A stretch of 38,604 nt of DNA, taken from positions 1-38,604 of the forward strand of contig PWLA01000137.1 of NCBI GenBank assembly GCA_003559555.1, written 5' to 3'. The stretch is from Gemmatimonadota bacterium. Lineage in GTDB: Bacteria; Gemmatimonadota; Gemmatimonadetes; Longimicrobiales; Gaopeijiaceae. The position numbers and the translations under genes were made by a program. The first letter of the stretch is position 1. Each line of letters starts with the position of its first letter. Shown here in pieces: positions 20,765-22,451 of this stretch. Below the pieces are notes generated by a model that had not been told where the DNA came from, did no database searches, and worked only from the letters and a program-made list of their open reading frames with translations.

Positions 20765-20957
20765 CGCATTCACCTCACGGCAGGGGGATCTGGATTCGTG
20801 CAGCGTCCGGATTCGCCAGGACCTCCGACCCGGGCCCATTGGCAGATCCGCACCCTCTGTTCCTCCAACGGCCTCTTGATCTACCACCAGCTTCAATGTA
20901 CTCCCGGAGGAGGGCGTTCGACACCGCGCTTGACAGATCGGACCCGGTTCCCCCACC

Positions 20958-21053
20958 ATGGTCGTCATGATGCAGCGAGCGCGATTTACCGGCCTGACCC
21001 CCTTCTTTACGACCCGTACCCCGGGCCGCAGGGAGCTGTGCATGCCGATCTGA
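20958..21053 (+). CDS. Candidate phenylalanine leader peptide
   Basis: A 31-codon ORF ends at TGA 21051-21053. It contains Phe codons at 20985 and, in tandem, 21003 and 21006, in the local sequence LTPFFTTRTPGR. Translation could also start at the ATGs at 20967 or 20970. No convincing Shine-Dalgarno sequence precedes any of them, which is the main weakness. A consensus -35 (TTGACA, 20930-20935) lies upstream but without a recognisable -10 at normal spacing. The tandem Phe codons sit 11 nt before RNA segment 2 of the competing hairpins, as needed for ribosome-stalling control of the aroQ/pheA genes that follow. Of the gene-free stretch 20765-20957 nothing else is recognised. Confidence 0.55.
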   Translation: MVVMMQRARFTGLTPFFTTRTPGRRELCMPI

Positions 21054-21088
21054 CGCACTCGCACTCCCCTGGAAGCGGCGGCCCGTGG
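21019..21088 (+). promoter_or_regulatory. Antiterminator of the phe attenuator (segments 2:3)
   Basis: Segment 2 (CCCCGGGCCGC, 21019-21029) can pair with the 5' arm of the terminator (21078-21088) in 10 of 11 positions. Beneath it, CAGGGAG (21029-21035) can pair with CTCCCCTG (21063-21070) with one bulge. Segment 1 (CGGCCTG, 20990-20996) can instead pair with 21022-21028, enclosing the tandem Phe codons and freeing the terminator. This is the classic 1:2 / 2:3 / 3:4 attenuator geometry. It was paired by eye, and no folding energy was calculated. Confidence 0.6.
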
Positions 21089-21111
21089 AATTTCCACGGG
21101 CCGCTTTTTTT
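21078..21111 (+). terminator. Strong intrinsic terminator before chorismate mutase (attenuator 3:4)
   Basis: Arms 21078-21090 and 21092-21104 are perfect 13-base complements (practically an 11-bp stem with an AATTT loop), followed by seven Ts (21105-21111). It lies only 21 bp before the chorismate mutase ATG and points into it. There is no upstream plus-strand gene to terminate, since the nearest ends at 19894, so a regulatory role for the downstream genes is the simplest reading. Confidence 0.9.
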
Positions 21112-21132: not shown

Positions 21133-21498
21133 ATGACAGCTTCACCATCTCCCAAGGAAAGCCGCACCTCCAAACCACCGAACGGTCGCGAGACGCTCAC
21201 TCCCGATCCAATTGCCCAACTACGCTCCCGAATCGAGGAAATGGACCGGGAGCTGGTGCAGCTCTTGGCCCGGCGCTGCCAGTTGGCTCAGGCCGTCGGA
21301 GAGCAGAAAAGGAGCAATGGACTACCCATGGTGGATCCGGCCCGGGAGGCCAGCGTGGTCCGCTCGGCCGCCGCCAGCGCCCGATCCCAGGGGCTGGACG
21401 CGGAGGGTGTGCGCCAGATCCTCTGGTGCGTCATCGGGCTGGCCCGCCAGGCCCAGGTGGACCCGCGTCCCCACCCCTCCGACTGTGAAACCCCATGA
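21133..21498 (+). CDS. aroQ: Chorismate mutase, AroQ type
   Basis: This enzyme rearranges chorismate to prephenate, the branch step toward phenylalanine and tyrosine. The 121 residues form a single all-helical AroQ domain after a Ser/Pro-rich, unstructured start of about 28 residues. The family pattern is complete: LRSRIEEMDRELVQLLARR, then VGEQKRSNGLPMVDPARE, and a last helix ending GLARQAQ, with the Arg, Lys, Asp-Arg-Glu and Gln positions that bind chorismate. The ATG at 21133 has GAGG with a 5-nt spacer and begins 21 bp after the intrinsic terminator. Its stop overlaps the prephenate dehydratase ATG by 4 bp (21495-21498), so the pair behaves as a split P-protein. Confidence 0.92.
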   Translation: MTASPSPKESRTSKPPNGRETLTPDPIAQLRSRIEEMDRELVQLLARRCQLAQAVGEQKRSNGLPMVDPAREASVVRSAAASARSQGLDAEGVRQILWCVIGLARQAQVDPRPHPSDCETP

Positions 21499-22451
21499 GC
21501 GCATCGGCGGCAGATACGCGCGTCCCGGCCCCCCCACCCCGCGTGGCCTTCCAGGGCGAGCCCGGCGCGTTCAGCGAGGAGGCCATCCGGGCCCACCTGG
21601 GCGACGAGGCGATTCCCCTTCCCTGCCCCGGCTTCCCGGAGCTGGTGCAGGGGGTAGCCGCCGGCGACGCGGAGCTGGGGATGATCCCCGTCGAGAACTC
21701 ACTGGCCGGGAGCGTGGCCCCGGCCTACGACGCCCTCATGGACGCTCCGGTGGAGATCCTGGCCGAGGTGATCCGCCCCATCCGGCTCTGCCTCATGGGG
21801 ACGGCTGACGCCCACATGGACGCGCTCGTACGGATCATCTCCCATCCGGTGGCGTTGGCCCAGTGCACCGGCTTCCTGCGGGGGCTGAACGACGTGGAGG
21901 GGGTAGCGGTCCACGACACCGCAGGCGCCGCTCGACAGGTGGCCCGGAAGCAGGACCCCACGGTGGCGGCGGTGGCCCCCCGGGGAGCCGCCGAGCGTTA
22001 CGGGTTGAAGCTACTGGCGGAGGGGATCCAGGACCGGCCCGACAACCAGACCCGCTTCTACCTGATCCGCCGCTCCACCCCCACCAACAGTTCTCTGGGA
22101 CAGAACCGATCGGCCCAGAACGATGCGGGTTCCGTACCCGCCCAGGACGGCCTGAAGACCGTCATCGTGATGGATCTGGACGACCGACCCGGCTCCCTGG
22201 CCGGGGCTCTGGAACCGCTGGCTGCCCGGGGGCTGAATCTCTCCCGGATCGAGTCGCGGCCCGCTCCCACGCCCTGGACCTATCGCTTCGTCGTGGACCT
22301 CCGGCACCCCAGTCCGGCCGACGCCGTGACGGAGGCCCTGGACGAACTGGCCCGACGCACCCGGGCCATGCGGGTGCTGGGGACCTTCCCCGCGGCCCCG
22401 CCGGCCGTGGGACCTTCGGTCAGCCCTCCTCCGCCAGACCAGCCTCGGTGA
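21495..22451 (+). CDS. pheA: Prephenate dehydratase with ACT domain
   Basis: PheA decarboxylates and dehydrates prephenate to phenylpyruvate, the precursor of phenylalanine. Of 318 residues, about 15-195 are the dehydratase domain: VAFQGEPGAFSEEA, the loop MIPVENSLAGSV, ISHPVALAQC and NQTRFYLI. An ACT domain covers about 215-300 with VIVMDLDDRPGSLAGAL and LSRIESRPAPTPWTYRF. The ESRP motif is the Phe-binding signature, so feedback inhibition is expected. A 25-residue Ser/Gln/Asn-rich linker separates the domains. The gene is translationally coupled to chorismate mutase. Its last 32 bp (22420-22451) overlap the end of the convergent M20 peptidase gene, so the Pro-rich C-terminal tail of PheA is encoded antisense to that gene's C-terminus. 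Confidence 0.95.
   Translation: MSASAADTRVPAPPPRVAFQGEPGAFSEEAIRAHLGDEAIPLPCPGFPELVQGVAAGDAELGMIPVENSLAGSVAPAYDALMDAPVEILAEVIRPIRLCLMGTADAHMDALVRIISHPVALAQCTGFLRGLNDVEGVAVHDTAGAARQVARKQDPTVAAVAPRGAAERYGLKLLAEGIQDRPDNQTRFYLIRRSTPTNSSLGQNRSAQNDAGSVPAQDGLKTVIVMDLDDRPGSLAGALEPLAARGLNLSRIESRPAPTPWTYRFVVDLRHPSPADAVTEALDELARRTRAMRVLGTFPAAPPAVGPSVSPPPPDQPR

Follow-up and report, generated by a model that had tools for sequence, protein, structure and literature searches.

Does the short open reading frame upstream of aroQ and pheA in a Gemmatimonadota bacterium, together with the hairpin that follows it, constitute a device that senses phenylalanine, and how would a ribosome begin to translate it? 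Leader-peptide attenuation is a textbook mechanism, and an earlier interpretation of this DNA from its letters alone (the sequence-only reading) had proposed it for the locus, naming as weak points that neither a clear ribosome site nor a clear -10 element could be found. Here, analysis of the window, meaning the whole stretch of 38,604 nucleotides of contig PWLA01000137.1, and of related genomes leads us to regard the aroQ-pheA leader, with high confidence, as a Phe-sensing ribosome-mediated transcription attenuator translated from a leaderless transcript.

Leader ORF, promoter and start of translation

The leader and the genes behind it comprise the following features.

20930-20935, forward strand: -35 hexamer TTGACA, by direct reading and by the TTGAC spacing in homologous leaders
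20954-20959, forward strand: putative -10 hexamer CACCAT (NANNNT) after an 18-nt spacer, aligned with CACCCT, CATGAT, AAGCCT and CAACCT of four relatives
20967-21053, forward strand: leader peptide ORF of 28 codons and a stop codon, MMQRARFTGLTPFFTTRTPGRRELCMPI; it is conserved in G003, G002 and G005, and its first base is the predicted transcription start
20985-20987, forward strand: first Phe codon, TTT; RF is kept here in four close leaders
21003-21008, forward strand: tandem, putatively regulatory Phe codons TTC TTT; FF or FFF is conserved in relatives
21013-21025, forward strand: candidate local protector hairpin, segment 1 CCCG (21013-21016) with CGGG (21022-21025), appearing in the untranslated fold
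21019-21029, forward strand: segment 2, 5' arm of the antiterminator, CCCCGGGCCGC, inside the leader ORF and coding for TPGR; pairs with segment 3
21031-21068, forward strand: stem by which the antiterminator is extended inwards (21031-21040 with 21060-21068), its loop containing the stop codon; corresponds to the family GGAGGYGTRYGCGC element
21078-21089, forward strand: segment 3, common to antiterminator and terminator
21093-21111, forward strand: intrinsic terminator, segment 4 (21093-21104) forming a 12 bp stem with segment 3, and T-run (21105-21111)
21133-21498, forward strand: aroQ, chorismate mutase type II, 121 aa (Pfam CM_2, E 7.8e-21)
21495-22451, forward strand: pheA, prephenate dehydratase with ACT domain, 318 aa (Pfam PDT, E 2.1e-56, and ACT)

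The genes that the sequence-only reading had assigned, with the aroQ ATG at 21133 and a chorismate mutase and a prephenate dehydratase downstream, are borne out by the Pfam matches, and the start of pheA overlaps the end of aroQ by 4 nt (21495 against 21498). Its Phe-rich mini-ORF is likewise present, read in a frame of 31 codons from ATG 20958 to TGA 21051-21053 with three Phe codons, two of them in tandem at 21003-21008, and the mini-ORF is conserved in genomes of the same genus and the same family, as are the antiterminator and the terminator. The nearest named relative of the genome is the MAG Gemmatimonadetes bacterium CSSed11_55, identical in sequence to the same-genus genome G004. Folding of the leader in the window gives a minimum free energy of -67 kcal/mol, with z = -3.1 against 200 shuffles.

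The promoter was examined across 108 curated homologous leaders, which are introduced below. TTGAC occurs no more than 80 nt upstream in 102 of them, against an expectation of 0.05 per leader, and 101 TTGAC positions fall 35-39 nt before the leader ATG, a fraction biased upward because the leaders were picked in part by promoter hexamer and spacing, although in most ORFs there are just one or two ATGs to choose from. In the family logo, counted from the leader ATG, positions -13 to -11 are T/A and positions -8/-7 are T, such that the T/A-rich -10 ends 7 nt before this ATG. In comparison with the downstream structural genes, the family leaders have weak Shine-Dalgarno sequences upstream, and matches to AGGAGG extend to no more than 3 of 6 positions in 97 of the 108 leaders. 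Given the promoter spacing and the weak Shine-Dalgarno, transcription is expected to start at the A of the leader ATG. The sequence hallmarks of leaderless mRNA, namely a promoter spaced onto the start codon and no Shine-Dalgarno, are found in the family leaders.

A leader-peptide attenuator with a conventional 5' untranslated region and its start at ATG 20958, the start codon chosen by the sequence-only reading, would accord with a frame that is open from 20958 and with the asnB leader L235, which lies well downstream of its TTGACC and lacks the leaderless spacing. We nevertheless consider this start improbable for the window. ATG 20958 sits within the -10 hexamer and is not conserved, whereas the ATG that close relatives keep is that of 20967 in the window, 35-38 nt after TTGACA; owing to the overlap with the -10 hexamer, ATG 20967 is the likely start. 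The leader mRNA of the window is thus very probably leaderless, as judged from the promoter and the conserved ATG, with its predicted start on ATG 20967, and the ribosome site and -10 element that had seemed to be missing are thereby explained.

Mutually exclusive helices and the proposed mechanism

Within 2 kb on either strand, the sole terminator-like site is 21078-21111, oriented towards aroQ. The perfect pairing of segments 3 and 4 followed by seven Ts, as originally described, proved correct (12 bp, 21078-21089 with 21093-21104, and T7 at 21105-21111), and so did the coordinates of segments 2 and 3, in which 21019-21029 matches 21078-21088 at 10 of 11 positions; the additional inner stem is also there. 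In 62 diverse sequences, pairing holds in 96.3% of cells for the 3:4 helix and in 87.7% for the 2:3 helix; double-change cells number 49 for 3:4 (11 in shuffles) and 25 for 2:3 (10.7 in shuffles), comparisons in which the shuffle controls overstate significance because the sequences are related. When the segments are slid, pairing drops to 35-48%, and to 35-42% for segment 2 with segment 3. The energies of each segment 2 with its own segment 3 sum to -1978, compared with -1866 (sd 20) for swapped partners, and segments 2, 3 and 4 change in concert at several columns, for example from C-G-C to G-C-G and from A-T-A to G-C-G. The 2:3 helix excludes the terminator and overlaps the path of the ribosome. 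Clustered cognate codons and a terminator, as expected of an attenuator, lie between the promoter and the first structural gene.

Support of this kind does not extend to the first helix of the sequence-only reading, in which segment 1 (CGGCCTG, 20990-20996) was to pair with 21022-21028: the bases can pair, and covariation lends the pairing no support. Of the conservation expected under that reading, both the mini-ORF with its Phe codons and the compensatory changes of 2:3 and of 3:4 were found, and those of 1:2 were not. The local hairpin listed above, 21013-21016 with 21022-21025, is conserved, being paired in 80% of cells, and exhibits no covariation beyond shuffles in the 62 sequences.

Three folds were computed. 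With a ribosome stalled at FF, the RNA adopts the antiterminator with its inner stem (-34.3 kcal/mol, 21018-21089); with a ribosome at the stop codon, it folds into the terminator; and in the untranslated fold segment 2 is sequestered by an upstream hairpin, with the terminator remaining free. These modelled states fit an attenuation model. Averaged over the family, the stretch separating segment 2 from segment 3 is a little more stably folded than its shuffles (mean z -0.77). Immediately before the stop codon (21031-21044 in the window), the family keeps a GGAGGYGTRYGCGC element in reading phases that differ among members, for which reason we consider it kept as RNA and not as peptide. This element could be part of the antiterminator or could act as a Shine-Dalgarno-like pause of the terminating ribosome.

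The geometry of the family is informative with respect to both ribosome positions. Counted from the first base of the last cognate codon, the median distance to the start of segment 2 is 12 nt; between the end of segment 2 and the stop codon it is 17 nt. As a ribosome covers some 15 nt on each side, one that stalls at the codon run would leave segment 2 just free. One located at the stop codon would abut segment 2 rather than cover it, so that blocking must act through the loop.

From the positions of these elements, we infer the transcription start, the stalling of the ribosome, the blocking of segments and the response to Phe as follows. Transcription would begin on ATG 20967, and a ribosome would initiate straight on the 5' end. 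Under a shortage of Phe-tRNA, the ribosome would stall at the tandem Phe codons 21003-21008 with its front edge reaching about the start of segment 2, and segment 2 and the inner stem would pair with segment 3; the antiterminator having formed, RNA polymerase would continue into aroQ-pheA. Given ample Phe-tRNA, the ribosome would reach the stop codon at 21051, in the antiterminator loop, and block the antiterminator, whereupon 3:4 would form and transcription would end at 21111. Without translation, the upstream hairpin would hold segment 2 and make termination the default.

A family of leaders whose codon run follows the downstream operon

Leaders of the type RF...FFxTRTxGR, with a like terminator, precede aroQ-pheA in genomes of the same genus and the same family.

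G003, same genus, before aroQ-pheA: leader MIQSVRFTDLPPFFTTRTAGRRERCM
G002, same genus, before aroQ-pheA: leader MMRRERFFSQAFFFTTRTTGREGGCAAD
G005, another genus of the family, before chorismate mutase: leader MTPERRFFGYPFFFATRTAGRRRRCTRR

Each of the three carries a GGCCCGTGG...CCACGGGCC terminator followed by 7-8 Ts. A search by exact DNA pattern, covering segment 2 and the terminator, picked out only four genomes and, being too strict, was replaced by covariance models. Model R1 was built from the four close leaders (window, G003, G002 and G005); that of the divergent G128 was left out because a MAFFT alignment including it misaligned the terminator. Full-length matches to R1 occur far beyond the window's family, their translations contain Phe, Tyr, His or Thr runs, and the leaders begin at an equal place relative to TTGAC. 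Model R2, the constant 3' part taken from alignment A6, matches 135 of 395 Gemmatimonadota genomes at a threshold of E <= 1e-4 and has no match in about two thirds of this sample. Matches on the reverse strand reflect the palindromic terminator only.

Outside the phylum, R2 has a match in 1 of 169 genomes, with none in the 20 reached through loci of other phyla and one in the 149 of the Acidobacteriota sample. This match, L348, is a leaderless-spaced leader MRFDLRTYAYTVTHPGRVSVRPSS with YAY that looks like a real Tyr leader, and the gene behind it resembles, by reading, the family's phenylalanine hydroxylases; horizontal transfer, deeper ancestry or a misbinned contig could account for it. Among the remaining candidates, L299 (a Thr-repeat ORF that no suitable gene follows) and the short matches L146, L150, L151, L152 and L154 were rejected, being judged false or unrelated terminators. 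At L144, close to the contig end of G128, the terminator region is repeated in inverted orientation, probably an assembly artefact, and the record of L073 is titled Borreliella garinii for an isolate that is an environmental MAG, a name that is probably wrong.

The first gene behind the 108 curated leaders encodes DAHP synthase in 46 cases, phenylalanine 4-monooxygenase in 25 and HisG in 19; pheA, directly or after aroQ, follows in 10, thrA in 4, and the gene was unresolved in 4. Leaders before pheA contain on average 4.2 Phe codons, those before phenylalanine hydroxylase 3.4 Tyr codons, those before DAHP synthase 3.7 Tyr and 1.7 Phe codons, those before hisG 5.8 His codons and those before thrA 10.3 Thr codons. 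Cognate codons make up 13-36% in frame versus 0.3-5% in the other frames. The dominant residue among F, Y, H and T is the amino acid of the downstream pathway in 91% of 58 leaders; shuffling of gene labels in the same set gives a mean of 30% and a maximum of 52%. Regulatory codons ending in T are favoured: TTT reaches 47%, TAT 42% and CAT 41%, compared with 14%, 17% and 27%, respectively, in the downstream genes.

This match between codon run and operon, together with the conserved ORF and the compensatory changes in 2:3 and 3:4, supports the original proposal of a leader-peptide attenuator for Phe, and it bears directly on two other explanations of the hairpin. The terminator stands alone in an intergenic region and might instead end an independent small RNA or the transcript of a divergent region, the Phe codons being coincidental; a leaderless mini-mRNA could, moreover, act in trans, as does rnTrpL of S. 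meliloti (PMC7298713). Since the codon run varies with the downstream operon across the phylum and the ORF-internal segment 2 covaries with segment 3, we hold this to be very improbable, and a role in trans would be additional rather than alternative. A tRNA- or metabolite-binding riboswitch, whether of the T-box type or a Phe aptamer, would also place a premature terminator before an amino-acid operon and would leave the ORF untranslated. Yet cognate codons lie in frame in every amino-acid class, neither the window nor nine loci of the family match an Rfam family, amino-acid operon leaders and the T-box included, above the curated threshold, and a relaxed Rfam search returned only sub-threshold chance matches, which together render a riboswitch exceedingly improbable.

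The attenuator of the window thus appears, from comparison of the leaders, to belong to a phylum-wide leaderless set with a common promoter spacing and a common 3' cassette (segment 2, the GGAGGYGTRYGCGC element and the GGCCCGTGG terminator), in which only the codon run varies among Phe, Tyr, His, Thr and probably Asn. Tyr-rich leaders, built alike, stand directly before phenylalanine 4-monooxygenase at L168, L176, L179 and some 22 more loci. His-rich leaders with a like cassette, for example MRICRHHHPHHAHHAPRTGRVTVGVRR, occur at L280 and L281, both in the window's genus, and at other hisG loci. At L209, L236, L198 and L289, Thr-rich leaders with up to 7 Thr in a row precede thrA, the gene of a bifunctional aspartokinase/homoserine dehydrogenase.

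Asn-rich leaders precede asnB in five genomes (L235, L153, L300, L314 and L315), for example MRATGCTLNNNNNRNPRTLCARAGCDV, with runs of NRNRNRN in G056, MTRRNDNRLNRNGRP in G105, NNNNNRN in G034, NVNNSN in G032 and NRNNN in G196. A terminator is present in both of those with a model match and in two of the three others. Leaderless spacing was not seen in G056 and G105, the two examined in detail, and the Asn set is for this reason regarded as a looser relative. No Trp leader of the leaderless type was found among 30 trpE upstream regions; two of these, L318 and L319 from a distant family of the phylum, have W-containing ORFs and terminators before trpE that are not leaderless.

Relation to described attenuators and implications

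The closest functional counterpart is the pheA attenuator of enteric bacteria such as E. coli, which likewise joins a Phe-rich leader ORF and mutually exclusive antiterminator and terminator to a downstream pheA. The locus in the window differs from it in phylum, in matching no Rfam family, in its leaderless start, in an unrelated leader peptide, in the position of segment 2 inside the ORF and upstream of the stop codon, and in its separate aroQ and pheA genes. A leader mRNA that starts at the ATG of its leader ORF and is subject to ribosome-mediated attenuation is described for trpLE(G) of S. meliloti (rnTrpL; PMC7298713), which differs in being Trp-specific, in its 14-codon peptide and in belonging to the Alphaproteobacteria. 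In mycobacteria, leaderless polycysteine short ORFs (Canestrari 2020, as cited in PMC13236596) likewise place a cognate codon run before a biosynthetic operon; they differ in that they concern cysteine in Actinobacteria and, according to PMC1262725, are without obvious terminators. The trp, ilv and leuS candidates of Actinobacteria are classical high-GC leader-peptide attenuators with, as here, terminator hairpins and complementary triples (PMC1262725). In that survey of Actinobacteria, Phe, Tyr, His and Thr are without a candidate; it lists attenuator control for His, Thr and Phe and T-box control for Tyr elsewhere (PMC1262725). A survey of 2010 placed leader-peptide systems only in Proteobacteria and Actinobacteria and added a his case in Firmicutes (PMC2965389).

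In the open-access literature, subscription journals being mostly outside its coverage, we found no report of attenuation in Gemmatimonadota and no description of ribosome-mediated attenuators, or of leader-peptide codons, for Tyr or Asn. Within the literature searched, to which any claim of novelty is limited, the leaderless attenuator family of Gemmatimonadota is apparently undescribed so far. The window locus taken alone represents a known mechanism; what is new is the leaderless modular family, including its Tyr and, probably, its Asn members. On balance, we favour a model in which Gemmatimonadota possess one modular leaderless platform, consisting of a fixed promoter spacing and a fixed 3' cassette that carry runs of at least Phe, Tyr, His and Thr and a looser Asn form. 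This platform would include the first ribosome-mediated attenuators for Tyr, located at DAHP synthase and at a phenylalanine hydroxylase that serves Tyr biosynthesis, and for Asn, and its GGAGG would lengthen the antiterminator and might, by way of the anti-Shine-Dalgarno, also detain the terminating ribosome.

Attenuation would here be a coordinated, phylum-wide system of leaderless leaders with a common cassette in little-studied bacteria. Finally, a Tyr-codon leader in front of phenylalanine hydroxylase offers a functional clue to the direction in which the enzyme is used: this placement suggests that in these bacteria it serves tyrosine synthesis rather than the degradation of phenylalanine.
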